In this document: positions 19,043 through 36,938 of the stretch, piece after piece
Layout of the letters: each line of letters opens with the position of its first letter
How positions within the stretch are numbered: the stretch's first letter is position 1
From: an uncultured Verrucomicrobiota bacterium
Lineage (GTDB): Bacteria; Verrucomicrobiota; Kiritimatiellia; CAIVKH01
DNA length: 36,938 bases
Direction of reading: 5' to 3'
NCBI GenBank assembly: GCA_937872895.1
Contig: CALMUP010000033.1
Coordinates: 1 to 36,938 of the forward strand
The notes under the pieces: model-generated
The model's database searches: none
What the model was told of the DNA's origin: nothing
Seen by the model: the letters and a program-made list of their open reading frames with translations, nothing else
Position numbers and translations under genes: made by a program

Positions 19043-19597
19043 ACAGGAGACGCAGAGGTCGCAGAGATAAACCGACCCGCGTGTTGGGTGAAACCCAGAA
19101 CCCGACCCCCGACGCACGGCAAGCCCCATCGTGAATGCCTGGCACCTTTCACCCGTACTCGTACACCCACTCGTACCCCCCAATCCGTCGCCCCCGTAGA
19201 GCCGGGTTTACCCCGGCTACACACGATCAGGGCCAACTCAACCCCCATAATCACCGATCCGCGTGTATGAGTACGTCTCCCCATCCCACGTCCACAACCC
19301 GCTCTTGTCAAAACAACGACTCTTCGATTGGTCATTAGTCAAGGGCGGACCCGGGAACCCTTTTATTCGCCTCCACCCGCATCATGGGGATCAACGCCCA
19401 GCCAAAATGAATTCCGTTGTCGATCTTCACCGGTTCGTTGTGCCAATTCTTCAGGGTCTACGTCAGTTCATCAGTAGTATCCAATCGGAATCCGAGGCGA
19501 TTCGGTATGGGAACCAATCCTCCCGAATTTAGGAACATCATAGGAACATCCTTCCGTTGTCGTGCACGTGAAGCATCACTATTATTTTTCGATCATT
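19043..19597. other. Gene-free region with several short repeats
   Basis: Near 19046-19066 lies the word GACGCAGAGGTCGCAGAG. A hairpin is formed by AGCCGGG (19200-19206) and CCCGGCT (19212-19218), and iterated CGTAC words precede it. Small open frames are present, including one at 19263-19532, but none shows a family feature. G+C falls from about 19280 onward, marking the left edge of the accessory region. Confidence 0.5.
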
Positions 19598-20629
19598 ATG
19601 CAGGATTACCTCAGAGCGACAGTTTCAACCATTTGCGAGCGCTTTCCGCGTCGGCACGTTTGGAACGATGTCGACCTGTTCGGTTGCCAGCACTGGATTG
19701 AGGCGGAAATTGCTCAACGTGGCCTGGCAAGCACCCGGCAAGCCTTTACCGCGACTTACTGGACCGACGCGAAAGGAACACCGGCCAGTAAATCGGTGTC
19801 CAACATCTGCGTGGAGTTACCGGGAACTGATCCTCAGGCGGGCACGTTGATCGTTGGCGCCCATTATGACTCGCGGCACGGCATGGAGGCCCAGCAATCA
19901 CGCGCACCACGGTTTGATTGGCCGCATCTGACCAATGGTCAGCCACCCCCAACTTACTGGGATACGCCGGGAGCCAACGACAACACATCGTCGGTTGCCG
20001 CCCTGCTCGCCATGTTACCGGCCCTTCATGCTACTCCCCGTCGCCATACGATCCACGCGGTCTTCTGGGTGAACGAGGAATACCCGTTCTATCGAAATTT
20101 CTGGCGCAAAGGCCGGCGCATCGGCGACACGATTTTTCGCGCCGATGGAATGGGGAGCTATTACCATGCCGAGCGGTTCAGCAAGCAAGATCGCCCCCTC
20201 ATCGGTTGCATCGCCCTCGACACCATGGGCTGTTACGACGATGAAAAAGGTTACGCCAGCAAAGACGCCCCCTGGCTTAAAAAGGCGGGCGTAAACCTGA
20301 TCTTTCCCGACAGCCACAACTACGTGGCGTTTTTATCCAACCTGGCCTCGCGTAGTTTTGCCTCCCGTTCAGCTGCGCTGTTTCGCAAACAGTGCCCGAT
20401 CCCCGTCCATGTACCCTGGATTCCACTCGGAGCACGCGCATCGTCGGGATGGTCCGACGATTGGTCGTTCTGGCAATTCGGGATCCCCGCTTTTTGCGTT
20501 ACGGACACCGCATACATTCGATCCCCCCACTACCACCGCATCACCGACACCCCCGAAAAACTCAATTACCCTGTTTTCGCCAAAGTGGTGGAGGGCGTTT
20601 TATCCACGATCATTCAGTTAACCCGCTAA
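19598..20629 (+). CDS. M28-family zinc metallopeptidase
   Basis: Protein of 343 aa from the ATG at 19598; in-frame GTG codons at 19562 and 19568 would add 10-12 residues and no strong binding site decides between them. The zinc ligands are visible in order: LIVGAHYDSRHG, GANDNTSSVAAL, the Glu pair in FWVNEEYPF, Asp in IALDTMG and His in SPHYHRITDTPEKL. The family comprises aminopeptidases and glutaminyl cyclases. No signal peptide is seen, so a cytoplasmic location is likely unless the start is wrong. The patatin gene follows after 13 bp, and the DUF2235 gene after a further 13 bp, making a three-gene operon. A link to the lipid hydrolases is inferred from position only. Confidence 0.85.
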   Translation: MQDYLRATVSTICERFPRRHVWNDVDLFGCQHWIEAEIAQRGLASTRQAFTATYWTDAKGTPASKSVSNICVELPGTDPQAGTLIVGAHYDSRHGMEAQQSRAPRFDWPHLTNGQPPPTYWDTPGANDNTSSVAALLAMLPALHATPRRHTIHAVFWVNEEYPFYRNFWRKGRRIGDTIFRADGMGSYYHAERFSKQDRPLIGCIALDTMGCYDDEKGYASKDAPWLKKAGVNLIFPDSHNYVAFLSNLASRSFASRSAALFRKQCPIPVHVPWIPLGARASSGWSDDWSFWQFGIPAFCVTDTAYIRSPHYHRITDTPEKLNYPVFAKVVEGVLSTIIQLTR

Positions 20630-20642
20630 ACGGAGAACAGTT

Positions 20643-22658
20643 ATGGCAAAAAAGAAATTGTGTGTAGCCCTGGTAATGGGAGGAGGCACTAGCCTGGGCG
20701 CGTTCAGCGGCGGTGCTTTGTCGCGCGTAATCGAAGACTTGAATGCAGTAAACAAACGACCAGACGGACCATTCGACATCGAAATTGATGTGGTGGCGGG
20801 TGCCAGCGCCGGCAGCCTGACGCTCGCCGTGGCGCTTCATACCTTATGCGATCCAGGAGGCGGTGTTGACGAGATGTCAAAACGCCAATTCAAGTCATGG
20901 GTGGAGATGATCGACATCAAACACCTGACCCGCGAACCCGCAAATGGAACCTGGAAAAGCCTTTTGAACCGCGAAGCCGTCGACGACATCGCCGTCAAGG
21001 TAATGAAATGGAACGACGGCACAACCCCGACCCCCACCCTGCTCGCAAACCGCGTTCTGTTCACATGCTCGATGACCAATCTGAATGGAATCGCGGTGGA
21101 CTGCCGAAAAACCATCAAAGACACAGTAAATGTGATTGGATCAGATGGCCTCGCCGACCCGTTGACTGGAACGTGGCACAAGGATGCACGAACATTCGAG
21201 CTGCTTTTTAACGGAACCCCTAAAACGCCCGCCTCACGTTTCCGTGCCCTGGACCTGTCTCAACGCATCTCCTGGATGGAAATAGCCGGATCCGCCGTAG
21301 CCTCGGGCGCGTTCCCCTTCGCCTTCGAACCCGTGCCTTTGCTGAGATATAAAAAAGAGTACGACGAGCCGTTGACCCGTCAGTGGCGCGATTACACAGA
21401 CTCCACGGTACAGATTGAAAAAGACAACGAGCCCATGCTCATGAGTTTCGCCGATGGCGGCATCATGGACAATGAGCCCCTCGAGCAGGCGCTTACCCAC
21501 TGCCGCATGCTCGACTTGGACAAACATGGGATACTTCACCCGAACCGTGAACGCCTGATCGTGTACATCGACCCCTTTGCCGATGGCCATGTTCATCAGG
21601 AACGCCTAGCCGCACACGCGGATACCGCGCTTGAAGGCCGGGGCAAAAACGTAGCAACGGCAGGTGCCATGGATAAAATCATTGGTCAGGTCGGCGCAAC
21701 CATCAATGCCCTTCGCAAACAATCCATTCAAAGGACATGGATCCGGAATCCGGACGATAAAGTAGCCGCCTACGGGAAAAATCTCACTTTGTTGGGCATT
21801 GCGCCGGTAAATATAGACGGGTCCCGGGTCTCATTGTTGGGCAAAGAATTAAGCGGATTCAAGGGTTTCCTTGACCAAAAGTACCGCGAACACGACTTTG
21901 CCTGCGGCCGTTCTCTGGGCGGGCAATGGCTTCGCCAATATTCCGCGTTGCAACTAACGCCATTACCCCCAAGTGCGATTGTTCGCCCCGATGCCATCCC
22001 GGAAAACGCCGCAGGATTTAACCTTCTGGTCAACCGCGTCAAGGTTGCCTTTGCTGATTTAAAGACCCCGCTGGCGCTATACTTACCGATTCCCATTGGA
22101 TTAATCAGGGAGGTAGCCACAGAGTTTAAGCTCAACAAATTGCTTAAAACCGCGCTAGCGGATACCAACCCATCGCCTGCTCCGCGAATAATTGACTTCT
22201 TTATCGTCGCAGAGCATTTGGGCCTGAGCAGCCTGAAGAACCCGACGTTGCAGTTGTGTGGCAAGAACGGCGGAAGCGACACCGATGAGATTCCTGCCTT
22301 AAAAACAGCATCCATCCACCGTTTGGCCACCCTGCTGATCGCACCCTCGACCTCATCGCCGACATTTTCCTCGCCGAACATTGATGTAAGTGGAGATACG
22401 TGCCGGATGACCATCCGAGTCCATCATTCGAGAAAGATACCGAACTCGGCCTCTCCCAAAACCGTATCGTTCGAAATACCCTTGGACTTGCCCTCAAGCA
22501 ACATCGCGATGGCCCTTTCGGAAGCCATCTCTATGTCGTGCGGCGGCGTGTTCGTCTATGTGGATCTTACCGACAGGGATATTCCAGTCGTAAAGAAGGT
22601 GGTTGCTAGAGAAATGCTTGAACCCTGGACCATCATGGCCCGGAAGATGATGCCGTAG
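20643..22658 (+). CDS. Patatin-like phospholipase
   Basis: Protein of 671 aa. The N-terminal patatin domain shows the oxyanion loop MGGGTSLGAFSGGAL, the nucleophile Ser55 in VVAGASAGSLT and the catalytic Asp271 in SFADGGIMDNEPLEQAL, so the Ser-Asp dyad is complete. Such enzymes release fatty acids from phospholipids. The C-terminal half (about 310-671) has no recognised domain. No signal peptide is seen. GGAG precedes the ATG. It is the middle gene of the operon with the M28 peptidase and the DUF2235 hydrolase. Confidence 0.88.
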   Translation: MAKKKLCVALVMGGGTSLGAFSGGALSRVIEDLNAVNKRPDGPFDIEIDVVAGASAGSLTLAVALHTLCDPGGGVDEMSKRQFKSWVEMIDIKHLTREPANGTWKSLLNREAVDDIAVKVMKWNDGTTPTPTLLANRVLFTCSMTNLNGIAVDCRKTIKDTVNVIGSDGLADPLTGTWHKDARTFELLFNGTPKTPASRFRALDLSQRISWMEIAGSAVASGAFPFAFEPVPLLRYKKEYDEPLTRQWRDYTDSTVQIEKDNEPMLMSFADGGIMDNEPLEQALTHCRMLDLDKHGILHPNRERLIVYIDPFADGHVHQERLAAHADTALEGRGKNVATAGAMDKIIGQVGATINALRKQSIQRTWIRNPDDKVAAYGKNLTLLGIAPVNIDGSRVSLLGKELSGFKGFLDQKYREHDFACGRSLGGQWLRQYSALQLTPLPPSAIVRPDAIPENAAGFNLLVNRVKVAFADLKTPLALYLPIPIGLIREVATEFKLNKLLKTALADTNPSPAPRIIDFFIVAEHLGLSSLKNPTLQLCGKNGGSDTDEIPALKTASIHRLATLLIAPSTSSPTFSSPNIDVSGDTCRMTIRVHHSRKIPNSASPKTVSFEIPLDLPSSNIAMALSEAISMSCGGVFVYVDLTDRDIPVVKKVVAREMLEPWTIMARKMMP

Positions 22659-22671
22659 CAGCGGGGGAATC

Positions 22672-23757
22672 ATGCCTAAGAACATCGTTATTTTTTCCGA
22701 CGGAACCGGCCAGGAGGGTGGCGTCAAAAACGACACGAACATCTACAAGTTGTTCAATATGATCGAGGACCGGACCGAACGCCAAGTTTCCTTTTACGAT
22801 CGCGGCATCGGTACCGGGTTTCGAAAGGTTACCGGCAACATCGGCGGCATGGGCATTTCGCGAAACATCAAACAGTGTTATCGGTTTATCTTTGAACACT
22901 ATGAGGCTGGTGACCGTATCTTCCTGTTTGGATTTAGTCGGGGAGCTGCCACCATGCGTAGCCTTTCCGGCTTTATCCATCATTTCGGCATACTCCCCAA
23001 GTCGAGGCCCGAACTCATCTCGAAAGCCTACGATATATACAGGTCACAAGACCCCGATCGGCGCAAGAGACTAGCCGAGGAATTCGTTATCCGACACCCT
23101 GTCATGTGGGCACGTGTTCATTTTCTTGGGTGTTTCGATACGGTAGCCGCATTGGGCCTTCCCTTTGAAACCTTAAGCGCAGCGTTGGATTTTGTTCCTG
23201 GTTTTCGACATAAATTTCATAATTTTACATTAAGTAAAAGCGTAACCAACGCTTACCATGCCCTGGCCATCGATGACGAACGCCTGACCTTTCACCCGGT
23301 TTTATGGGATCCGGATATTCAGCCATACCAGACCATGAAACAGGTGTGGTTCTGCGGGATGCATACGGATGTGGGCGGAGGGTATCAAGAGCAGGAGCTG
23401 TCGGACATCCCACTGGTGTGGATGACAGACATGGCCGTGCAGCAAGGCTTGCATATCTTCCATAAACACAAAGTGATGATAAAAGAAAACGCCGATGGCA
23501 CCATGCACGACTCACGGGGCACTCGTTTGACCAAATTGTATCGAAAGAAAACCCGGGAGTGGAAAAAGGATGGACGACCTCGAAACGAGCGTCCAGTCCT
23601 GCACGAGAGCGTGCTACAGCGAACGATCGGGAAGAACAATCAGGTGAACTCGATCTATCACCCGTGGATTAAGGACTTGCCGTACGAAGTGGAGCCTTGG
23701 GTTCGGTACGCGGATCAGACCTGGTGCTCGACCAAGAGTCGAGCGGTAACATCTTAA
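22672..23757 (+). CDS. DUF2235 alpha/beta hydrolase (Tle1-like phospholipase fold)
   Basis: Protein of 361 aa. IVIFSDGTGQ at the N-terminus, the nucleophile elbow FGFSRGAATMRS (Ser89), CFDTVAALG and the MHTDVGGGYQEQEL block are diagnostic of DUF2235. The family includes Tle1 phospholipase effectors of type VI secretion, but no secretion components are present here. GGGGGA precedes the ATG. It is the last gene of the operon. The C-terminal end lies 42 bp before an IS66 remnant, and its last residues may have been altered by the insertion; the length is within family range. Confidence 0.87.
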   Translation: MPKNIVIFSDGTGQEGGVKNDTNIYKLFNMIEDRTERQVSFYDRGIGTGFRKVTGNIGGMGISRNIKQCYRFIFEHYEAGDRIFLFGFSRGAATMRSLSGFIHHFGILPKSRPELISKAYDIYRSQDPDRRKRLAEEFVIRHPVMWARVHFLGCFDTVAALGLPFETLSAALDFVPGFRHKFHNFTLSKSVTNAYHALAIDDERLTFHPVLWDPDIQPYQTMKQVWFCGMHTDVGGGYQEQELSDIPLVWMTDMAVQQGLHIFHKHKVMIKENADGTMHDSRGTRLTKLYRKKTREWKKDGRPRNERPVLHESVLQRTIGKNNQVNSIYHPWIKDLPYEVEPWVRYADQTWCSTKSRAVTS

Positions 23758-23799
23758 CCGATGCGGGTTACAGAAACTCGCATGGGGCCACCATCAATC

Positions 23800-24059
23800 G
23801 TAAGCGTCACGCCAAGCACCTTTTGACGGGGCTTCATCAGAGATGGCGTAGGTGTCAGAGGTTCGGATCTATCACCATTACGCTGCGGACTTCAGCGATG
23901 CGCGTTGGGGTTTGGTCCAGGCTTGCGGGGTGATGTCGGGGAGCTGGTGGTTGGTCATGGACGGCAGCCGTTCGAGCACATCCTTGAGGTAGGTGTTGGG
24001 ATCGATGCCACTGGTCTTGCAGCTTTGGATGATGGTGTAGATGACCGCACTGCGCCAGA
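23800..24059 (-). mobile_element. Truncated IS66-family element
   Basis: GTAAGCG at 23800 matches the conserved start of IS66 terminal repeats. It lies downstream of a transposase C-terminal fragment on the minus strand. The left end of the element and most of the transposase are lost at about 24059. The remnant lies in the gap between two convergent operons. Confidence 0.75.
23878..24059 (-). pseudogene. IS66 transposase C-terminal fragment
   Basis: Translating the minus strand from about 24059 to the TAA at 23878 gives SAVIYTIIQSCKTSGIDPN, then TYLKDVLERLPSMTNHQL and TPQAWTKPQ, the familiar C-terminus of IS66 TnpC transposases. About 60 residues remain of a protein that is normally near 500. 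There is no start, so it is not functional. Confidence 0.88.
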
Positions 24060-24141
24060 TTAGTTAGAAATCATGAAAGATATCACGATACTTAGCATTA
24101 ACGAGTTAGCGAGGTCCGAAGCGGTCCCCAGAGGCCCTACT

Positions 24142-25149
24142 TCACACAGCACCAAGCCGAGCAAGGATGTCGCGCATGAGGATACCTTCATTCGCGTAGA
24201 TCTTCTCACCGGAGCTGTTCGCGACGAGGTTACCTCCTTTATGATGCAGGGCAACGACCTTCCACGCGTCGTTGAACACAGGGGATCCGCTTGATCCGGG
24301 CATGGTGTCGGTAGCATACTGCAAGCGGTGCTCGTGGATGTTCACGACTTGATTCGCGGTGAGGGCGATCTGCTTCGGGCCACCGGCAGGATGCTGAATG
24401 ATGGTGACGTGTTCGCCCACTTTCGGGGCTTTGATGAGTTCCAAATCTAGGCTTCCCCAAGAGGTAAGCTGGGGCTTTGCAGCGTGCTCGACCAAGCGTA
24501 CGATGCAGTAGTCTAGAGCTTGATTCGCGCGGTGCGTACTTGCGTCGATCTCGTAGCGGACGGGTTGGGTGAGGTTGCCATGCAGGTCTTCCTCAACGTT
24601 GAACTCGACGAAGGACTTCGCGGTGAGTTCGGGCGTGGGGAGGACGTGGTGATTGGTGAACATGAGTCCACCGGGGAGGAGAAAGCCGGTGCCGAGATTG
24701 AAGGGGGTGGTGATGCGACACACGGCGCGCGACCGTTCAAGGCCGACCCGCAGCCAGTCGATGAGTTTGAGATTATTCGCGCCGATGATCTTCTCCAGGC
24801 CAATTTCATCCGGCGTGTGCGAGAATTGTACGGGTGCGGTGACAAAGGGCGTGGGGATCGTCACACCATGCTCGGCAGCGGTTGTCACTTTCTTCTCGAT
24901 GGCGCGGATGAGCGAGAGCACGCGCTCGTCGATCTGGCGAGACTCCACGCGAGCAGCTTCGCTGGTGAGGGTACCGTTGCGCTGCTGGCGTTCGAGGCGA
25001 GAGAGGTCGCCAAGGCGGAGGATGGTTTCATCATGCAGGTCGTTGAGGCGTCCCTTCAGGAAGGAGCGCATTGATTGCACGGCGCCACGCGTCTCACCGT
25101 CGCCAATCTGAGAGCGCCACAGAGAGAAGATTTCTGAGGGATTGCTCAT
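24142..25149 (-). CDS. Trypsin-like serine protease with N-terminal EAD11-like domain
   Basis: Protein of 335 aa from the ATG at 25149, or 337 from a GTG at 25155 that overlaps the previous stop. Residues about 20-88 are helical: ETILRLGDLSRLERQQRNG then TLTSEAARVESRQIDERVL, which resembles effector-associated domain 11. That domain joins effectors to partners in predicted biological-conflict systems. The protease domain has His in FTNHHVLP, Asp in QALDYCIVRL and Ser in GSSGSPVF, so the triad is complete. There is no signal peptide, which suggests a cytoplasmic protease held in check or recruited by a partner. It is the last gene of the lipase-ABC-membrane protein operon. The protease call is firm; the EAD11 call was made by eye. 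Confidence 0.88.
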   Translation of the reverse strand: MSNPSEIFSLWRSQIGDGETRGAVQSMRSFLKGRLNDLHDETILRLGDLSRLERQQRNGTLTSEAARVESRQIDERVLSLIRAIEKKVTTAAEHGVTIPTPFVTAPVQFSHTPDEIGLEKIIGANNLKLIDWLRVGLERSRAVCRITTPFNLGTGFLLPGGLMFTNHHVLPTPELTAKSFVEFNVEEDLHGNLTQPVRYEIDASTHRANQALDYCIVRLVEHAAKPQLTSWGSLDLELIKAPKVGEHVTIIQHPAGGPKQIALTANQVVNIHEHRLQYATDTMPGSSGSPVFNDAWKVVALHHKGGNLVANSSGEKIYANEGILMRDILARLGAV

Positions 25150-25151
25150 CG

Positions 25152-26543
25152 TCACTCGGGATCGGGGATTGCTCTCATGCAGGTGAAAATGGCGCGAAAG
25201 AGAATGTTGTAGAAGACGAGCGCGATCATCAAGATGAGAGGGGTAGGGAGGTTTTCACTATGATCCCAGACCAAAAGGGCGAAGGGAGGGATCAGGGTAC
25301 AGAGTTGAGTCGAAAGGAACTTGACCCAGATATGCTTGCCCACGACCTGGAAGACCGCGTGGGCGATCACCACCAGAAGCATCAGGCAAAGCACAATGCC
25401 TCCAATTATAAAAACAACATCTCCTTCCGTGACATTTGTCACAGTAACGATTATGCCGGACAAGAATATAGCAACGGTCCCGGCCCAACCCAGCCAATAG
25501 GCGCCCACGCCGACTGCGCCGATGGCAAAGGTGGTAATGAGAATGCAGAGCAGCCCCACGGTGATGATAAAACCAATCGCGGGCACATCGTCATCCTGCC
25601 CTTGAGCTGCCAAGGCCTTTGAGTAGTTGCGAAAGTGTGTATTAAGGGCAGCCCACTTGTCATGGAACTTGGCATCGCAAAGACGCTCAGCATTTGCCAT
25701 GTTTGGTTCAGGGTCCCAATCACGCGGCAGAGCGGGGCCATTGTGCTGATCAAAGTGGACTTGAAGGAAGTCGGCGAGCTTGTTGATCGTGTTTACACTG
25801 CGCATTGCTTGGGTGTCATCCATCATGGGGATGTCGAGCAGCCGATACGCAGCGAGGGCGTGGCTGCGTTTCTCCAGATCGAATCCGTAATCGCCGACCA
25901 GAACGAAGTCAACATCACGGACTGACCAGTCATCGGATTGACCCAATGCCGGTGGCACGGTACCGGGTGGAATTTTGGGCTCTTCGTTGTGGTCCTTGTA
26001 GGAGTGGGGGCTGTCGTCTATAAATCGGTTTTCAGCCTCTCGCGTCTGGAGTAGGTTCTTGCCCAGTTCGTCGCAGTAGGACTTGGCGATACTCTCCCAG
26101 AGTGTCCAGGCGAGTTGAATGCGTTGGCCCTCCTCGACAACTTGTTGTATATCTGGGTAGGCGATGCGTACCATCAGACCCATCGCTTTCCAATGAAGAA
26201 GTGGAGCAAAGGCGATGCAAGCACAGACAGTCAAGTCCAGTAGACTGAACCACCACCCGCTCCATGCACGATTCGGTGGCAGGCATCCGTAGAGGCGTGA
26301 GCGCTGCCAGATCCAATACAACAAAAGCAAGCCAGCGAGGAAGAGTAACGGCACCGTGAAGCGGTCAATTTCCCAAGAAATTGACCAGAACAACAGCCCA
26401 GTCGCCCCCGAAAGAAGACTCAAGATCAGCGCCAAGCCAAGCCCGAGGTGATAACGCTCGGCCCACAGATGCGGGTGATGCGCCATTATCCATGCATCGA
26501 CAACTTTGTAGGGGCGATGGAGTGTCGACCAGAACGCCTTCAT
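25152..26543 (-). CDS. Polytopic membrane protein, likely partner of the adjacent ABC ATPase
   Basis: Protein of 463 aa with hydrophobic segments at about 33-53, 61-80, 97-117 and four to six more between 325 and 455. A soluble stretch of about 200 residues (120-325) lies between the two membrane halves. The N-terminal AWIMAHHPHLWAERYH just before the first helix is a distinctive short motif. No family is recognised with certainty. Its start overlaps the ABC ATPase stop by 4 bp and its stop adjoins the protease start, so it is probably the membrane component worked by the ATPase. Whether it is a transporter or a membrane-bound sensor cannot be told. Confidence 0.8.
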   Translation of the reverse strand: MKAFWSTLHRPYKVVDAWIMAHHPHLWAERYHLGLGLALILSLLSGATGLLFWSISWEIDRFTVPLLFLAGLLLLYWIWQRSRLYGCLPPNRAWSGWWFSLLDLTVCACIAFAPLLHWKAMGLMVRIAYPDIQQVVEEGQRIQLAWTLWESIAKSYCDELGKNLLQTREAENRFIDDSPHSYKDHNEEPKIPPGTVPPALGQSDDWSVRDVDFVLVGDYGFDLEKRSHALAAYRLLDIPMMDDTQAMRSVNTINKLADFLQVHFDQHNGPALPRDWDPEPNMANAERLCDAKFHDKWAALNTHFRNYSKALAAQGQDDDVPAIGFIITVGLLCILITTFAIGAVGVGAYWLGWAGTVAIFLSGIIVTVTNVTEGDVVFIIGGIVLCLMLLVVIAHAVFQVVGKHIWVKFLSTQLCTLIPPFALLVWDHSENLPTPLILMIALVFYNILFRAIFTCMRAIPDPE

Positions 26544-27916
26544 ACGTCGAGGAACCTCCGGCAGGATTGGCTGACATCACGAAAATAGGCGACGCTGATG
26601 TTTGCATTACGTAGTTGAGTGAGTAGGTCGTCCGCGAGGATGTTGATTTCGGTAGTGATTAGATAGGAGGAGGCGCCTAGCATCTCAATGCTCTTGACTT
26701 TGCAGGAGTTGAGAGCGCGGATTAGGCTGTCGGTAGCATGAGCGCAAGTGATCTCGAAGGCGTTCATGGGTCGGTTGATCCCAATGTCCTTCGTAGGGCC
26801 GACGTAGCTGACTTTGCCTTCATTGAGAACGATCATCTGGTCAGCGACGGTTTCGACTTCATATACATGCTGAGAGCTGAGTATTACGGGGATGGGCGAC
26901 TCGGGGGAGTGCGCCACACTGCGGAGATCATCTAAAAACTCAAGTTGTGCAGGGATATCAAGCGGGGCAAGCGGTTCATCAAGGATAAGCATCGTAGGAT
27001 ATGAGAGCAGGGCTTTGGCAAGCTCCACGCGGGTACGGTAGCCTCCGGAGAGTGCGAACCAGGATTTTCCGGCGTGGGGTTCAAGCCCGAGGCGATGTAG
27101 TATGAAGTCAACGTTTTCACGTCCAGCAACTCCGGTGCGACCAAAGCAAGCCGCTTGGCGGATGAGCACGTCTATTACAGTGCCAGGCCATTTCTCAGGG
27201 CGCTGCTCGACGAAGGCGATCTTCCGGCGCAGTGTGATCCAGTCCGTCGGTTCGCAGCACAAGGCGGGATACTCTCTTTTACCCGTGCTGGCCTTTAGTG
27301 TACCGGCGATAATGCGCAGTAGCGTGCTCTTCCCGCTACCGTTCACGCCAAGCAGACCGGTGACCTGACCTTTGCTTAGCTCAAGGTTCACCTCGTGGAG
27401 ATGGAATGCGTCAGCCCTAGCGAAGGATTTTCCGAGGTTCTCACAGCGGAACACGACTTGATCCGAGGCTCGCGATTCGGCACGGCGCTTCGCGGCTTCA
27501 AAGAACGGAACAGTGCCGGAGACTGCAACGGAAGACCTGGCGCTCTGCTGGGCGAGGGCGTAAATATCTTTTGGTGCGCTGGTACACTTGCGGATGGCGT
27601 CGGCGACTTCGTAAGTGAGTTCCAATACGCGCTTCATCAGGATGCGTGACTGCACGGCGTAGTCAGATGGAGTGATTATGCCGCGGCGGAAATCGCCCTC
27701 GAGTACCGCAGCATCGCGACGCGGGAGATATGTGTCGATCACGATGCGTTGTTCAAGGCTGTAGCGCTTAGCGAGGTCCATGAGCCTCTTGCACGCACGG
27801 CCGACCTGATCTGCCACGGTGGCGTCATCGGTGAAGCAATCGCGGATGGCATCCACTTCGCGCTCCATGCACTGAAGTAACGCCTCGACATCGTTAGCGG
27901 TGACGACGCTGATCAT
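26540..27916 (-). CDS. ABC ATPase with extra N-terminal helical (EAD-like) domain
   Basis: Protein of 458 aa. The ABC domain (about 154-365) is complete: Walker A GVNGSGKST (190-198), Q-loop Gln238 in FVEQRP, signature ALSGGYRTRVELAKAL, Walker B LILDEP and His350 in ILSSQHVYEVE. It resembles ATPases of ABC-2 type exporters. The first 150 residues are unusual for such proteins: helical, with EGDFRRGIITPSDYAVQS then RILMKRVLEL, a pattern close to the EAD11-like part of the protease. A C-terminal extension of about 90 residues follows the NBD. The gene overlaps the lipase stop (ATGA) and the membrane protein start, each by 4 bp. Confidence 0.9.
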   Translation of the reverse strand: MISVVTANDVEALLQCMEREVDAIRDCFTDDATVADQVGRACKRLMDLAKRYSLEQRIVIDTYLPRRDAAVLEGDFRRGIITPSDYAVQSRILMKRVLELTYEVADAIRKCTSAPKDIYALAQQSARSSVAVSGTVPFFEAAKRRAESRASDQVVFRCENLGKSFARADAFHLHEVNLELSKGQVTGLLGVNGSGKSTLLRIIAGTLKASTGKREYPALCCEPTDWITLRRKIAFVEQRPEKWPGTVIDVLIRQAACFGRTGVAGRENVDFILHRLGLEPHAGKSWFALSGGYRTRVELAKALLSYPTMLILDEPLAPLDIPAQLEFLDDLRSVAHSPESPIPVILSSQHVYEVETVADQMIVLNEGKVSYVGPTKDIGINRPMNAFEITCAHATDSLIRALNSCKVKSIEMLGASSYLITTEINILADDLLTQLRNANISVAYFRDVSQSCRRFLDV

Positions 27917-28803
27917 GCGACGATTAGCTTTTGTAGTTCATCGATGTAAGCGTCCATGAAGTGGTCAGTCGCGAAGTCGAGCACGCCCTCTTCGACAAGC
28001 TCGTCGGCCAGCGGCGCACTCAACTTAGCCTCACTTACTGGCGGTATGGCTTCAATGTATTCTTTCAAGAGATCGAACTGCTCCTCACTGAGCGGTGCTT
28101 GATCCGCTTCGAGCAGTTCACCGCCGCCCTCATCGGAGCCAAATAAAACGGCCAGCGGACCCGCCATCTCGAGTGTGCCCTCGCTGGTGATACGCTTCGG
28201 CGTGCCTACGTGCCTATAGCCCGGCGGAACGCGTGGAACGATGTCCCATTGATTAACAAACCGATAGAAGCGTGAGCGGAAGATGGGGTCGAAGGCGGCT
28301 TGGAACTCACTGCCCGCGAGTCGTGGTTGACCGAAGGTGTAGAGGCACTCGATGCGTTCGGCGATGCCTTCCGAGTGCATGCGTGCGGCACATAAAGCGG
28401 CTTCCGCAGCTCCGAGACTGTGTCCGGTGAGGCACACTGGTTTGCTTGGCACGCCATGCAAGTCGAAAGCGACGAGGAGGTTCTGCCAAACCTCATCCAG
28501 TGCATCGCTGAAGCCACCGTGAACACTGCCGAGGGGGTGTGACGAAGGATAGACCTGAAGATTTCGCAGCCATTGGCCAAATGTGGCCTGGGTGCCGCGA
28601 AAGGAGATGAGAACGCGCTCTGGGTCCGAGGCTATAAATACCTGGGATCCGCTGCATGTTAACACATCGCACTGGGAAAATCCGGCCGAGAGATGATGGG
28701 ACCGAATGGCCGGTGCCTCGTCATAAGCCCGTTTAGCCGCGTATGCTAGTTCGAGTGCTTTTTGAAGAGAAAATGCTTCTATTGGATTAGAGGAAGAGTT
28801 CAT
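27913..28803 (-). CDS. Class 3 lipase
   Basis: Alpha/beta hydrolase of 296 aa from the ATG at 28803; an in-frame TTG at 28812 is an alternative. The nucleophile is in LTGHSLGAAEAAL, with SFRGTQ before it, YTFGQPRLAG after it, Asp in NQWDIVPRVPP and the catalytic His in ATDHFMDAYI near the C-terminus, so the triad is complete. No signal peptide or membrane segment is seen. It is the first gene of a four-gene operon whose members overlap end to start. A TTAGGAGG lies about 30 bp upstream, nearer to a nine-codon reading frame (ATG at 28816) that overlaps the lipase start. Confidence 0.9.
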   Translation of the reverse strand: MNSSSNPIEAFSLQKALELAYAAKRAYDEAPAIRSHHLSAGFSQCDVLTCSGSQVFIASDPERVLISFRGTQATFGQWLRNLQVYPSSHPLGSVHGGFSDALDEVWQNLLVAFDLHGVPSKPVCLTGHSLGAAEAALCAARMHSEGIAERIECLYTFGQPRLAGSEFQAAFDPIFRSRFYRFVNQWDIVPRVPPGYRHVGTPKRITSEGTLEMAGPLAVLFGSDEGGGELLEADQAPLSEEQFDLLKEYIEAIPPVSEAKLSAPLADELVEEGVLDFATDHFMDAYIDELQKLIVA

Positions 28804-28925
28804 ATCGAACAAACATAAATTTTTGGCCGCCTCCTAACAAGGTCGAGTCAAGACTACCATTACTCCAAGCCTATCCAAACGACTGGCCAATTTCATACTG
28901 ATCATTGGATTCTTTATCGTTCGAA

Positions 28926-29882
28926 TTACTTGCTCCCAAAAATTGTCTGCCAAAATTCGGCATTGAGCGTGACACCATAAACCGTTGCATCGTCTGTAGT
29001 GGTTCCATCCTCGCCGGGTTTCGAGTAGGCGTAGAATGATTGTCCGGCGAAGAGCGAAATGCCGTACACGATGTCCCAGCCTACCCCCAGCGTTCCAACC
29101 AGTCCGGTAGAATCGGCTTCTGCATCATCTCTGGTCAGCATGCCACCCACGCTGACTTGAATGGACAGACGACGCCAGATTCCATTATCGAAGTCGAGGA
29201 AACGGCCATCAATATAGCGGCTATAGGCCGGATAACCGCGAAGCGTTACTCCCGCGCCTATACCGCCAAGCTCATCATTATAGAAGGTTGAAACACCATA
29301 CCGGAGCCGATGGAATTGCCAGTCTTCGACCTTGCTGCGCTTGTACAGTTCTTCTACGTGTTGGTGCCTAGTAAGCTTATTCAGCTCGTTAGTATCCATG
29401 CTGGAATTTACTGCCAACTGCAATTGGATTAACTTTTGGTCAATCGTGACAGCTTTCACTTTGTCGCATGTAACCGGACCAATCATGACAGCCGTACTTA
29501 GTGCATTCACAAATGGGCGATTGATCCGATACACTTCTCCGTTTTTAACAACCACCTTCTCGTTGTTTATCAGGTCAGCGAGAAAACGAACGTCTTCCGG
29601 TATGCGGTTTGGACGCGCGACTCGAAGATCATTGGTAAGGCGATTTGCGGCCGCATTGATATTGGAAATGCTAGCCGCCATGGACTGAGCCTGTGACTTG
29701 AAGCCTTCCAATTCTCCCTTTAACCCTGCAATGCTTTCTTTCAGTTCTTTGACTTCATTTGCCGCTTCCCCCGCTTCTTCAGCTCGAACTTCGGCCAACT
29801 GAAAATACGACAAGACAAGGCTGACAAGAGCACATGCACATAGCTTCGGCAACCAATACAGGATATGTAACTTATTCTTCAT
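28926..29882 (-). CDS. Envelope protein: signal peptide, coiled coil, beta-rich C-terminus; function unknown
   Basis: Protein of 318 aa from the ATG at 29882, which follows AAGGAT; the frame is open for 34 more codons upstream without a binding site. Residues 1-34 form a signal peptide ending near AEVRA. A coiled coil follows (about 40-80: VKELKESIAGLKGELEGFKS). The last 120 residues alternate aromatic and polar positions (YGVSTFYNDE, LSIQVSVGGML, LVGTLGVGWDI), as in small outer-membrane beta structures. No family is recognised. It lies between the peroxidase and the lipase operon on the same strand. Confidence 0.7.
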   Translation of the reverse strand: MKNKLHILYWLPKLCACALVSLVLSYFQLAEVRAEEAGEAANEVKELKESIAGLKGELEGFKSQAQSMAASISNINAAANRLTNDLRVARPNRIPEDVRFLADLINNEKVVVKNGEVYRINRPFVNALSTAVMIGPVTCDKVKAVTIDQKLIQLQLAVNSSMDTNELNKLTRHQHVEELYKRSKVEDWQFHRLRYGVSTFYNDELGGIGAGVTLRGYPAYSRYIDGRFLDFDNGIWRRLSIQVSVGGMLTRDDAEADSTGLVGTLGVGWDIVYGISLFAGQSFYAYSKPGEDGTTTDDATVYGVTLNAEFWQTIFGSK

Positions 29883-30038
29883 CGGTGAATCCTTGCTATA
29901 AGTAAAACCGATTAGTCGGCCAAAACACTTTACACGAAATATTGCTTGTAAGGGCGCGCACCCTCTTAAATCATAACTTATCATACTGGATTTAATATGT
30001 ATCTAGGTGATAAAGCTCTTCTCCGTATTGATACCAGA

Positions 30039-31853
30039 TCAGGGTAATGTGACTCCGGAAAATACAATCAAGTCGGCGAAGGAAAATTGATTTTGCGCAC
30101 TTGATGGCAAGAACGGAATGAAACCGCCCTGGATGTTGAGATAGGAACCAGCATCACGCTTGAGCATTCGGACGAAGGTTTCGGCGATGATGCGGGCGCC
30201 GACAGGGCCTAGCTGCAGGCCTTCTTTTAGAACCGCGGCTTCGCGCAGGATGTAGTACCAGAGCGGGGTTTTTTGCAGGAGGAGGCCATTGCCGGACTGG
30301 AGCAAGGCGATCTCGTTAGCCGGCAGGTTTTGTGTGATTTCGGCAGCAGACATCGGAGATATCCCAAACTGCTGGGCCATTCCTTGACCGCTGGGCAACC
30401 CGAGAGCAAGTCCGCGACGCAAGTTTCGAGCGGCCAAAACCGCCATCATACCCACCATGTCGGGCAATGACTCAAGCGCCGGGGTCAAGACGCTGTCAAT
30501 TCGACGCGCACGGTTAAAGACAGCTACGGGAATGCCCGTCTCGAAGAAGGCATTAAAGTCGACCACCCAGTTTGATAACACGGGAAGGTTGGGATTACGC
30601 GCAAAAGCAAACACATCACCCATGGTTGCTCCGATTTGTACGGAACTCAACCAGTACTGTTCGCGAATCATGCTGTGCCCAAAACGATAGGCGGCGACAG
30701 AAAACTCAACCGGCATGCTGAATGGACTACCGATCGGGGCCACGACACTTGCCAACGCCTGGTCAACGGCATCCTGACCGCATATGCGCGGAAGGAAGTC
30801 ATGAATTATGGCCCATTGATAATGATGGGTTACGATACGTTTCGCCTCAACAAACACATCTCCGGTAAAACCGGCAACCAGCAACAAATCCACGACCTTG
30901 TTATGGAATTTCAACATCGCGTGATGAAATTGTGAGACAATTAAATTTTCATCATTACGCGGGTCACCGATGATCGCGGTGTTGGTGGATGTCGAAGGAT
31001 CAAGAGCGTTGCGTATACGAGGCACATCAAAATCCGTTTGCACCCGGTTTTGGCCTGGCACACCTGGCCCACCCGGTCCACTACTTGTATTTGACCCCAA
31101 TTGGAACTTGATTGCGGTTGGCGGCCCGGACTTGGGAAAGCTGTACAAATATGGATCGAGAGCGGGACCTCGTCCGTAAACCGACTCCAAGTCCAAAACC
31201 GGAGTTCGCATGTTATTGATCGACGTAGCATTGGTTGATACATCCAACGACGACGAAACATCCAGCGTGATATCGTGATCGATGAATTGTCCTACGTAGC
31301 TAAAACCAGCCGGTATATTTGAATCGGGTGTCGCTTCACGCCCTGGATCAGCAATCAGATTACCCAACTGCATCAAAAGGGCTTGCGTAGATGCATTAAA
31401 TGGCAGCTTTGTTTTATTGCGAATAGGCGTCGTCGACATGTAGCCAAACTTATCAGCACAGGGCGAAAAGACCGGCTTCCATGGAAACCAAGCGAGGGAA
31501 ACTTTTGCCCCATGGAATCCATGGCGGGATGAACGAAATGCCGCCAACGAAGCACGTATGTCTTCGGGTAGTTTACCAACAGAAACGGCGGAAAGATCGT
31601 TTAACTTGTTGATGCTACGCAAGTACTTGGCCTGGTCTACCGTCGGCTTCACATCCAGGTCCAGCAATCGCTGCTGTAAATCTACCGCGGTTAATTTGAC
31701 CTTGCGCGAGAAACCCTTGGGTGCGGCAGATTGGGTCAACTGTTTATCAAGGAACTCTTGCGCGGCGAGCGGGCCATCATTTGCGAGTTTTGGAATCTTG
31801 GCGGGGGCTGCCTTACGGTTTGCAGATGATGCTTTCTTCTTGCTGCTGTTCAT
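30039..31853 (-). CDS. Animal-type haem peroxidase
   Basis: Protein of 604 aa from the ATG at 31853, which has AAGGAG at a good distance; the frame is open for 18 more codons upstream. By comparison with myeloperoxidase, GQFIDHDITLD holds the distal Gln and His and the Asp that forms a haem ester. GDPRNDEN gives the catalytic Arg and the second haem-linked Glu. AAYRFGHSMIRE gives the proximal His. Spacing of the Tyr before that His (four residues) follows peroxidases and not cyclooxygenase or diol-synthase enzymes. The Lys- and Ala-rich N-terminus is not a signal peptide. The substrate is unknown; nearby lipases make lipids one possibility, but this is inference. Confidence 0.9.
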   Translation of the reverse strand: MNSSKKKASSANRKAAPAKIPKLANDGPLAAQEFLDKQLTQSAAPKGFSRKVKLTAVDLQQRLLDLDVKPTVDQAKYLRSINKLNDLSAVSVGKLPEDIRASLAAFRSSRHGFHGAKVSLAWFPWKPVFSPCADKFGYMSTTPIRNKTKLPFNASTQALLMQLGNLIADPGREATPDSNIPAGFSYVGQFIDHDITLDVSSSLDVSTNATSINNMRTPVLDLESVYGRGPALDPYLYSFPKSGPPTAIKFQLGSNTSSGPGGPGVPGQNRVQTDFDVPRIRNALDPSTSTNTAIIGDPRNDENLIVSQFHHAMLKFHNKVVDLLLVAGFTGDVFVEAKRIVTHHYQWAIIHDFLPRICGQDAVDQALASVVAPIGSPFSMPVEFSVAAYRFGHSMIREQYWLSSVQIGATMGDVFAFARNPNLPVLSNWVVDFNAFFETGIPVAVFNRARRIDSVLTPALESLPDMVGMMAVLAARNLRRGLALGLPSGQGMAQQFGISPMSAAEITQNLPANEIALLQSGNGLLLQKTPLWYYILREAAVLKEGLQLGPVGARIIAETFVRMLKRDAGSYLNIQGGFIPFLPSSAQNQFSFADLIVFSGVTLP

Positions 31854-31968: not shown

Positions 31969-32670
31969 TCATCGTATGGATGAACTTGAGTGCCACAAGA
32001 TGGATGCTGATTTGAGTGCAGCAGAATCGGATAGGCCTAGCTTGTCCTTCAAATGCTCCTTGTGAACATTCAGCGTTTTCACGCTGATGCCTAGCGTTTC
32101 GGCGATTTTTTGGTTGTCCCAGCCGGCGCCGAGGAGTTGGAAGACCTGGAATTCGCGGTCGCTTAGTTTGGCGAGGTCGGGGTGTTTGGTTTTGTGTTTG
32201 CCGGGGCCGTAGATTTGTTTGTGGAGCATGGGGCTGGCGATGCAGCGGCAGATGTGGAGTTCCCCCTGGACGGCGTCGCGGATCGCGGCGGCGAGGCTGT
32301 TGGGTCCTACACCCTTGTAGATAAAGGCCTTGGCGCCGGCCTTGATCGCGCGTTCGGCGAGTTCCCCGTCCTTGGTCTGGCTGATGACGATGTGAGCGAC
32401 GTCCGGCAGGGCGCAGTGGCAGCGGGCAATCGCATCAAGCACGTCCCCGCCGCCCGGTCCGAGCTCGACGACCACCGCGTCCGGCGGGGATTTCATGACC
32501 GACGCCAGCGCCGTGCGGCAACTGTCGTATTCCCCCACCACCGCCATGTCCGGCTGCGTGCCGACCGCCAAGGCCATGCCCGAACGCGCCATCGCATGTT
32601 CACTGATTACCACGACCCGTAACGATCGATCGACCCCCTCAACCCCCGCTCCAGAAGCTACCTTCTGCAT
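31969..32670 (-). CDS. Atypical NarL-type regulator without a phosphoacceptor Asp
   Basis: Protein of 233 aa from the ATG at 32670, which follows GAGGAGG; a 17-codon extension upstream lacks a site. The receiver domain is degenerate: the acidic pair is Ser23/Glu24 in VVVISEHAM, and the phosphorylation site is Glu69 in AVVVELGPGGGD. The switch Ser in HIVISQTKD and Lys in AFIYKGVG remain. The LuxR-type HTH (LSDREFQVFQLLG, QKIAETLGISVKTLNVHK) is intact. A Glu here may mimic the phosphorylated state or the domain may bind something else. It is orphaned and heads the minus-strand series of peroxidase, envelope protein and lipase operon, which it may control. Confidence 0.9.
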   Translation of the reverse strand: MQKVASGAGVEGVDRSLRVVVISEHAMARSGMALAVGTQPDMAVVGEYDSCRTALASVMKSPPDAVVVELGPGGGDVLDAIARCHCALPDVAHIVISQTKDGELAERAIKAGAKAFIYKGVGPNSLAAAIRDAVQGELHICRCIASPMLHKQIYGPGKHKTKHPDLAKLSDREFQVFQLLGAGWDNQKIAETLGISVKTLNVHKEHLKDKLGLSDSAALKSASILWHSSSSIR

Positions 32671-32794
32671 GGTATGCCCCTCCTCGGCTTCGAAGTGTAG
32701 AAGCAGAACCGATTCGTGCAATGTAAAATTCGGTTAGGATAGGATGATCAAGCGGCGTGGGTAGGTAGCGGGTTCCTAGGGGGCGGGAAGATGG

Positions 32795-32936
32795 GGTTTC
32801 GGGTGTCGGGTGTCGGTGTTCAGGTTTCGTGGGTCGGGGTGCAGGTTTCAGGGAAGAGTACGAAATCACCCTGCAACGCACCCGAAACCCGACACCCGAC
32901 ACCTGAAACCCGAACACTGAACACCGAAACCTGAAC
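32795..32936. repeat. Long imperfect inverted repeat (GGTTTCGGGTGTCGG family)
   Basis: Iterated words such as GTTTCGGGTGTCGGGTGTC on one side pair with CCGACACCCGACACCTGAAA and GAACACCGAAACCTGAAC on the other. It is the largest copy of the family also seen at 10031-10113 and 11252-11344. It fills the gap between the regulator and the MerR-like gene. Confidence 0.8.
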
Positions 32937-32947
32937 CCCCTCTTCCC

Positions 32948-35601: not shown

Positions 35602-36619
35602 TCCGCCCGACCAGCCCGCCGCTCCGTCGCCGCCGCCGCAGCGTCGTTCCCGGTCCTTCCTGTGGCGTCTTGCGTTCGGGTTGTTGTCGCTAGTCCTGCT
35701 TGTCGCGTTGCTGGATCCGCTGGAGATCGCCCATGATCTCGGCAAGGCGGATGGCAGCGATGTCGCGGCCGGATTCGGGGTCTGCCTGCTGGCCCTGGTG
35801 GCGCGGACGCTGAAATGGAAACGGATCCTCCGGCGCATGGAGATTCGGATCCCGTTCTGGCGCCTGCTCGAGGTGTATACGATCAGCTACTGGTTCAGCA
35901 CGTTCCTGCCCGGCAGCCTCGGAGGGGATGTGTACAAGGTCTATGACCTGGCGCGGGCGACCGACAAGAAAATCCGACCGGCTCTCGCTGTGGTCATCGA
36001 GCGGCTGACCGGGGTGATGTCCTTGCTGACCGTGACCTCGCTGGCGCTGCTGGTGTATGGTCGCGATCTTCCCCTGCCGGCCTGGTTGATGCCGGTGTTG
36101 ATCGGTGGAGCGGTGGCGGCAACGGTGGCGCTGCTGGCCGGCCTGCTGTTCTTCGAGTCGATCTGGATGCTCATCAACCGGCTGTTCCCGTGGACGGCCA
36201 GCTTGATCAAGGCCGAGAAGGTGGCGCAATTCGGTGAAGTAAGTGTCGAACTGCGGCGGAACCACCTGCTGTTTATCGAGGCGGTGGCCCTGGGCATCGT
36301 GGTGCAATTGCTGGTACTGCTTTCCTATTACCTGATGGCCAAGGCGATCAGCGATGGGGTGAGCCCGTACTTCTTCTTCACGCTGTATCCGCTGGTGGAA
36401 ATCGCCAGCATGATCCCGATCTCGATCAACGGCATGGGGGTACGCGAAGGGCTGACGGTGTATGCGATGAAAGTCTATGCGGTATCGCCCAGCCTGGCGA
36501 TGAGCATGGGCATCCTGTTCCGGTTGGTGGCGATCGCGCTGGCCGTTCTGGGCGGGATCCTGCTGATGCTGCGCCGGAACGGCGGCTGGAAGGTGTCGGG
36601 CGGCCAGACGGCGGGGTGA
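35600..36619 (+). CDS. UPF0104 / LPG synthase transmembrane-region flippase-like protein; start unresolved
   Basis: Polytopic protein of about 340 aa with some eight membrane segments. TFLPGSLGGDVYKVYDLAR, VIERLTGVMSLL and MIPISINGMGVREG are the recognised motifs of the UPF0104 (DUF2075-unrelated) lysylphosphatidylglycerol synthase membrane domain, found in lipid flippases and envelope polysaccharide loci. No ATG or GTG lies between the acyltransferase stop and the first membrane segment. Candidates are CTG 35660, TTG 35681, or an ATG at 35438 deep inside the previous gene. A frameshift at the G8 run (35583-35590) would fuse it to the acyltransferase. Coordinates given are the open frame after that stop. 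Confidence 0.8.
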   Translation, partial: NPPDQPAAPSPPPQRRSRSFLWRLAFGLLSLVLLVALLDPLEIAHDLGKADGSDVAAGFGVCLLALVARTLKWKRILRRMEIRIPFWRLLEVYTISYWFSTFLPGSLGGDVYKVYDLARATDKKIRPALAVVIERLTGVMSLLTVTSLALLVYGRDLPLPAWLMPVLIGGAVAATVALLAGLLFFESIWMLINRLFPWTASLIKAEKVAQFGEVSVELRRNHLLFIEAVALGIVVQLLVLLSYYLMAKAISDGVSPYFFFTLYPLVEIASMIPISINGMGVREGLTVYAMKVYAVSPSLAMSMGILFRLVAIALAVLGGILLMLRRNGGWKVSGGQTAG

Positions 36620-36655
36620 GGGCCCGCGTCTTGGGGTGCGCTGGATGCACCTCTG

Positions 36656-36938
36656 ATGCGGTGCGCCTGCGGCCCACCCTTGCGCGGTGCGCCTGCGGCT
36701 TACCCTTGCGCGGTGCGCCTGCGGCTCACCCTTGCGCGGTGCGCCTGCGGCTCACCCTTGCGCGGTGCGCCTGCGGCCCACCCTTGCGCGGTGCACCTGC
36801 GGCTTACCCTTGCGCGGTGCGCCTGCGGCTCACCCTTGCGCGGTGCGCCTGCGGCTCACCCTTGCGCGGTGCGCCTGCGGCTTACCCTTGCGCGGTGCGC
36901 CTGCGGCTTACCCTTGCGCGGTGCGCCTGCGGCTTACC
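36656..36938. repeat. 26-bp tandem repeat array running off the window
   Basis: About eleven copies of TTGCGCGGTGCGCCTGCGGC followed by TTACCC, TCACCC or CCACCC, with few other changes (one copy has GTGCACC). The period is 26 bp, so it is not a multiple of three and has no constant reading frame. It begins about 36 bp after the flippase stop and is cut by the window end. Confidence 0.95.

Follow-up and report, generated by a model that had tools for sequence, protein, structure and literature searches.

Members of the peroxidase-cyclooxygenase superfamily share the motifs xGQxxDHDx and xRxxEx and a proximal His paired with an Asn (PMC4420034, in the part of the paper available to us). In the first motif the Gln is the probable halide site, the first Asp provides the first ester bond to the haem, the His is distal and the final Asp binds calcium, while the second motif supplies the catalytic Arg and the ester-forming Glu; families 4 and 7 are excepted from xGQxxDHDx and from the His-Asn pair, with family 4 comprising cyclooxygenases, alpha-dioxygenases and linoleate diol synthases (PMC4420034, same part). 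The short bacterial peroxicins constitute family 5, whose physiological role is called ‘completely unknown’ there. A second bacterial point of reference is RbMPO of Rhodopirellula baltica, which accepts I−, SCN−, Br− and Cl− and keeps its haem on denaturation; the accessible portion of the same paper describes RbMPO as a myeloperoxidase homologue and assigns a sulfonium link to Met243 of myeloperoxidase (PMC10204396).

The locus described here lies in a window of 36,938 nucleotides, the whole stretch of DNA that was analyzed, which is contig 33 of 51 in a 3.87 Mb genome of an uncultured Verrucomicrobiota bacterium. A gene for a haem peroxidase of the superfamily (PF03098) occupies positions 30039..31853 on the minus strand and encodes 604 aa, starting at an ATG at 31853 and including its stop codon at 30041-30039; an earlier note on this DNA gave the correct coordinates and left out the strand. 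The opposite (plus) strand is full of stops, and AAGGAG is found seven bases 5′ of the ATG. The Pfam model PF03098 matches the product with 71.8 bits against a gathering cut-off of 25 (E 5.6e-20), so the assignment is not a matter of chance and the animal-type haem peroxidase proposed from the letters alone is confirmed. The protein is short and single-domain, as Pfam finds a single PF03098 stretch in it and nothing else at E 1, and scans with NCBIfam and PADLOC returned zero matches up to E 0.1. Across the source genome, one place matches the peroxidase and one matches PF03098. No secretion signal was seen, as the earlier note had also reported, and the mean Kyte-Doolittle value of any 19-residue stretch is at most 1.6; the peroxidase is thus apparently cytosolic, lacking a recognizable secretion signal.

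The haem pocket is complete. By equivalence to the signature in the available part of PMC4420034, the motif GQFIDHD (residues 188-194, 31272..31292, minus strand) provides Gln189 for halide, Asp192 for an ester bond, the distal His193 and Asp194 for calcium. Alignment places the catalytic Arg299 and the ester-forming Glu302 in RNDE (residues 299-302, within GDPRNDEN 296-303; 30948..30959, minus), the proximal His393 in YRFGH (residues 389-393; 30675..30689, minus), and its expected hydrogen-bond partner Asn477 in RNLRRG (476-481; the Asn codon at 30423..30425, minus). The protein therefore carries xGQxxDHDx, xRxxEx and the His393/Asn477 pair, the pairing being read from the alignment. All eight pocket residues (Gln189, Asp192, His193, Arg299, Glu302, Arg390, His393 and Asn477) are present, in agreement with the note's claim of intact haem-binding and ester-linking positions, the latter being Asp192 and Glu302. 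They are invariant in 15 of 15 rows, consisting of the window protein and 14 relatives chosen from Alphaproteobacteria, Bacteroidota, Rhodothermota, Actinomycetota and the window's own phylum. The further idea that such an intact set is uncommon in bacteria did not hold, since 23 of 26 aligned proteins, the window's included, keep the full pocket. The exceptions are the Mesorhizobium huakuii and Paroceanicella proteins, which have lost the equivalents of Asp192, Glu302 and Asn477, and one genome (G013) in which those of Asp192 and Asn477 are gone. A YcaO-like gene stands a few genes away from these pocket-defective M. huakuii (L046:5683-7488) and Paroceanicella (L057:7800-9422) relatives, which perhaps represent a repurposed, RiPP-linked branch.

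These features invite comparison with the described bacterial enzymes. Like the peroxicins of family 5 as portrayed in the available part of PMC4420034, the window protein is bacterial and single-domain and has the full GQxxDHD, RxxE and His-Asn signature, and it most likely belongs to this family; it differs in a leading segment of about 110-130 residues that precedes the region aligning with solved peroxidases, and the comparison with family 5 is one of description. RbMPO, likewise compared by its description in the accessible portion of PMC10204396, is also bacterial, of the same superfamily and in possession of the conserved Asp and Glu. In contrast to myeloperoxidase of family 1, the window protein has Asn at residue 303 where that enzyme has Met243, which argues against a myeloperoxidase-type sulfonium link. 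The haem would by family analogy be ester-linked via Asp192 and Glu302.

Such haem peroxidases, remote kin of the ones in white blood cells, are known in many bacteria, and the window protein is an ordinary bacterial peroxidase. Relatives were detected in 38 of 72,556 plasmid records at E 1e-3, the closest being those of Rhizobium sp. CB3171 (58.7% identity) and Sinorhizobium meliloti/S. kummerowiae (~56.6%), while a search of genome contigs suited to close relatives confirmed only a Sphingopyxis MAG (60%) and Bradyrhizobium jicamae (41%). Matches to Rhizobium sp. CB3171, S. meliloti pSymA and the Sphingopyxis MAG begin at residues 39, 22 and 66, respectively. In a tree of 44 rows these three and the window protein, which share 57-60% identity and the same pocket, form a clade of four with support of 100/100. 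Five bacterial rows that we labelled MPO-like, four of them with strong full-length PF03098 matches, stand apart from the window protein in this tree, which holds no named family 1 rows and in which the placement of three long-branched rows is unsure. The gene context differs even within the clade: in the two rhizobia the peroxidase directly follows an adenylate cyclase-AAA-TPR gene (L015:10532-13708 and L016:9817-13635), whereas in the window it follows a LuxR-type response regulator gene (31969..32721, minus strand, by Pfam) with a gap of 115 bp and a GC3 of 0.74. At three loci (L062, L063 and L064; G085, G125 and G268) the match to the C-terminal part of PF03098 precedes that to the N-terminal part along the gene, in the manner of a circular permutation. 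Peptidases were also observed near several relatives: S8 and C1 in Palleronia (L040), C25 in R. sophoriradicis (L042) and Nostoc (L045), and M6 in Phyllobacterium (L056).

Of the 387 genomes of the phylum, the protein query hit 12 and the PF03098 model 14, the window's genome being counted in both; in the family of that genome, the protein query hit none of the seven others. Phages gave no match, and IMG/VR contigs contributed 19 relatives at 25-42% identity. A hydrophobic 15-residue stretch with a mean of at least 1.5 near the N-terminus is present in 13 of the 17 tree rows from viral contigs, versus a value of 0.43 for the window protein, which suggests that secreted and apparently cytosolic forms both exist, with the caveat that starts are uncertain.

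Three lipid hydrolase families are encoded within 10 kb of the peroxidase, and the earlier note had raised the idea of oxidized-lipid products. By this account the enzyme would be a fatty-acid dioxygenase or cyclooxygenase-like protein acting on lipids that the lipase, patatin and Tle1-like phospholipase nearby set free, and turning them into oxylipin-like products. Pocket residues speak to this directly. The catalytic Tyr of cyclooxygenases and alpha-dioxygenases sits three residues before the proximal His. Arg390 occupies that place here, with Tyr389 at −4, and Arg is found at −3 in all 26 aligned rows, which is the pattern of a peroxidase and not of an oxygenase. Furthermore, GQxxDHD and the His-Asn features are present, from both of which family 4 is excepted in the available part of PMC4420034. 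The note's own preference for a peroxidase over an oxygenase is upheld on these grounds.

Structural comparison was less discriminating. A profile of 15 rows searched against solved structures retrieved 8s6c at the top (2.9e-19), with further matches to lactoperoxidase, peroxinectin A, eosinophil peroxidase, myeloperoxidase and dual oxidase (1.5e-5); alpha-dioxygenase reached only 0.0099, and none of the 29 matches retrieved up to E 10 is a cyclooxygenase. An AlphaFold2 model built from 19 rows was of middling confidence (pLDDT 66.6, pTM 0.72), an earlier three-row model having been of no use (pLDDT 34.9). Its best fold match among those listed was again 8s6c, ‘Cyanobacterium TDX16 peroxidase’ (VIA Z 22.8 with an rmsd of 4.3 over 411; Foldseek E 1.8e-8), which is nonetheless only 20% identical in the structural alignment, and the solved peroxidases among the matches listed are all at 20% identity or below. 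COX-2 matched with a Z of 21.2, within 1.6 Z units of the best peroxidase, so the overall fold, which is what the window protein shares with the cyclooxygenases and alpha-dioxygenases, cannot decide alone between the two activities and the residues do.

The hydrolase genes themselves are a class 3 lipase gene (Lipase_3, PF01764, E 7.4e-24; 27913..28812, minus strand), which starts 1.2 kb downstream of the peroxidase, and patatin-like and Tle1-like (DUF2235) genes about 6-9 kb off. Their association with the peroxidase was evaluated in 51 other loci, 48 with a peroxidase ORF and 3 without, using the window's own proteins as phmmer queries at E 1e-3; flanks were uneven, from almost nothing to 14 kb, and two of the loci (L078 and L079) hold the same protein. 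Relatives of the M28 peptidase, patatin, Tle1-like, EAD11-trypsin, membrane, lipase and 28926..29882 proteins numbered zero in these loci, the Rhizobium, S. meliloti and Sphingopyxis loci thus being without a relative of the window's lipase, and seven ABC ATPases were matched. A conserved operon of peroxidase and lipase was accordingly rejected.

Domain searches for Lipase_3 and patatin covered 21 genomes or records, the window's included and 15 of them single plasmids, with Nonomuraea omitted for size. Of the 20 records other than the window's genome, one (G013) has Lipase_3 above the cut-off, on a contig other than that of the peroxidase, and a P. yeei plasmid has one below-cut-off match ~62 kb from its peroxidase. 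Patatin exceeded its cut-off in 6 of 21, window included, and in the other records that allowed both genes to be located the two lie far apart, with at least 100 kb between them in G251, R. gallicum and R. sophoriradicis; in G389 and G390, whose patatin contigs were not placed, the peroxidase loci lack patatin by phmmer. Twelve annotated plasmid neighbourhoods of peroxidase relatives name no lipase or patatin, one naming a PHB depolymerase family esterase, and six more stretches came without annotation. A Pfam scan of 119 greedily picked neighbouring ORFs (13 omitted, including all six of Gemmatirosa) displayed 25 of 131 families, the DUF900 hydrolase of G243 not among them, and was not used for lipase absence. 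One relative does offer a partial parallel: in G243 (L060:7810-11496) the peroxidase gene stands immediately between a LuxR-family gene upstream and a gene for this DUF900 alpha/beta-hydrolase downstream. A comparable arrangement, involving an unrelated peroxidase, was noted on an Acaryochloris plasmid (L053:3458-6915), where a Dyp-type peroxidase gene is followed by a lipase family gene with an NB-ARC gene nearby.

Because lipases do not accompany the peroxidase in the other loci and records, the link from lipase to oxylipin is unsupported. The lipid-fed oxygenase was set aside on its pocket residues and unconserved neighbourhood, and we regard it as the least credible of the readings discussed here. 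Most probably the lipases nearby supply no substrate to the peroxidase; they look like chance neighbours, a feature of the island and not of the peroxidase.

That island is a low-GC, probably acquired stretch from the M28 gene to the peroxidase (19562..31853, no strand assigned), delimited by GC3 values of 0.51-0.72 in its nine genes versus 0.74-0.92 in 15 other genes measured. It begins with the M28 peptidase, patatin-like and Tle1-like hydrolase genes, identified by Pfam and arranged in a row with 13-bp gaps and low GC3 (19562..23757, plus strand). On the minus strand follow genes for an EAD11-Trypsin_2 peptidase (24142..25155, Pfam), a polytopic membrane protein matching no Pfam family (25152..26543), an ABC ATPase whose N-terminal part is weakly EAD11-like (26540..27916, by Pfam and pairwise comparison) and Lipase_3, and adjacent members of this row of four share 4 bp. 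Between lipase and peroxidase, a gene without assigned family (28926..29882, minus, ATG taken at 29882) encodes a protein that by eye looks coiled-coil and beta-rich and has a hydrophobic N-terminus; its gap to the peroxidase is 156 bp from this ATG or 54 bp from the frame-opening ATG at 29984. It was entered from 29849, minus its first 11 residues, in most comparisons including phmmer and GC3, and as the full frame in the Pfam scan.

Among the 387 genomes of the phylum, only the window's own has EAD11 above the cut-off, and this confinement together with the low GC3 supports a foreign origin of the stretch. A long flanking repeat or tRNA was looked for at the stretch and none was found, and the two flanking genes, sought in three related genomes, gave no pair on one contig among the matches listed, so that an empty site was not established. 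Judging from composition and patchy occurrence, horizontal transfer is the probable origin of the peroxidase gene. Inverted repeats of 22-38 nt that overlap one another were observed at 32794-32939, just past the right end of the island, and a GTG-started, tandem-repeat-like open frame (36616-36936) runs off the end of the window.

Paired EADs couple effectors to conflict systems (PMC7159879, in the part available), which provides a context for the genes next door. On a 37-kb plasmid of Tolypothrix PCC 7601 (L052:4760-9895), an ABC ATPase 41% identical to the window's over 317 columns (E 2.7e-82) has its gene overlapped by that of a polytopic membrane protein (E 0.028 to the window's), and an EAD11-trypsin gene (32%, E 5.8e-40) lies 1 kb on, on the opposite strand. 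In pairwise comparison the N-terminus of the window's ABC ATPase matches EAD11 of the Tolypothrix copy at E 4.2e-5 and of its own copy at 0.004; Pfam reports no EAD11 on either ABC ATPase, and the Tolypothrix ABC ATPase did not match its neighbour's EAD (E 7.6). The trio at 24142-27916 is thus a candidate EAD-linked conflict system, putatively extended here by the overlapping Lipase_3 gene.

Could the peroxidase be one effector of such a multi-gene conflict island, releasing toxic oxidants in an infected cell alongside lipase and protease effectors? It lies upstream of the tightly overlapping row and on the same strand, and the grouping of similar ABC, membrane and EAD11-trypsin proteins on the Tolypothrix plasmid, with the documented role of EADs, lends the idea some appeal. 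Against it, the row is 1.2 kb from the peroxidase with one gene between, the peroxidase carries no EAD (by Pfam or by blastp with the window's EAD11, both at E 1) and drew no PADLOC match. The annotated genes of the Tolypothrix stretch include no peroxidase or lipase, peroxidase relatives lack such neighbours, and the word ‘peroxidase’ is absent from the main text of PMC7159879. We therefore think this role quite unlikely. Its more elaborate form, in which the EAD11-linked ABC ATPase and membrane protein would set off the protease, the lipase and, inside the infected cell, a lethal burst of oxidants like that of myeloperoxidase, strikes us as more doubtful still.

We instead consider it likely that the gene encodes a cytosolic single-domain bacterial haem peroxidase, probably acquired horizontally and not fed by the neighbouring lipases. 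By analogy with the family, the haem would become ester-linked through Asp192 and Glu302, distal His193 and Arg299 would split H2O2 to form Compound I, and Compound I would carry out two-electron oxidation of a halide or thiocyanate, or one-electron oxidation of small donors. For the cell, the most likely benefit would be that H2O2 is used or removed and that reactive oxidants are made when it is stressed or faces competitors, although this is a guess. A different substrate is conceivable: the haem peroxidase MopA of Erythrobacter sp. SD-21 can oxidize Mn(II) (PMC6247904, in the part available), and the nearest named relatives of the window protein include root-nodule and other soil bacteria, which would suit an enzyme oxidizing Mn(II) or organic substrates in place of halides. 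PF03098 is, however, the only Pfam match of the peroxidase, and we consider this option unlikely, if somewhat less so than an effector role.

Overall, a widespread bacterial group gains in this peroxidase a member that is intact and apparently cytosolic. The neighbourhood is more unusual than the enzyme, given the candidate EAD11-linked ABC/protease cassette that it contains. As for the enzyme, a role established for its clade, which has a member on S. meliloti pSymA, would probably hold here too.
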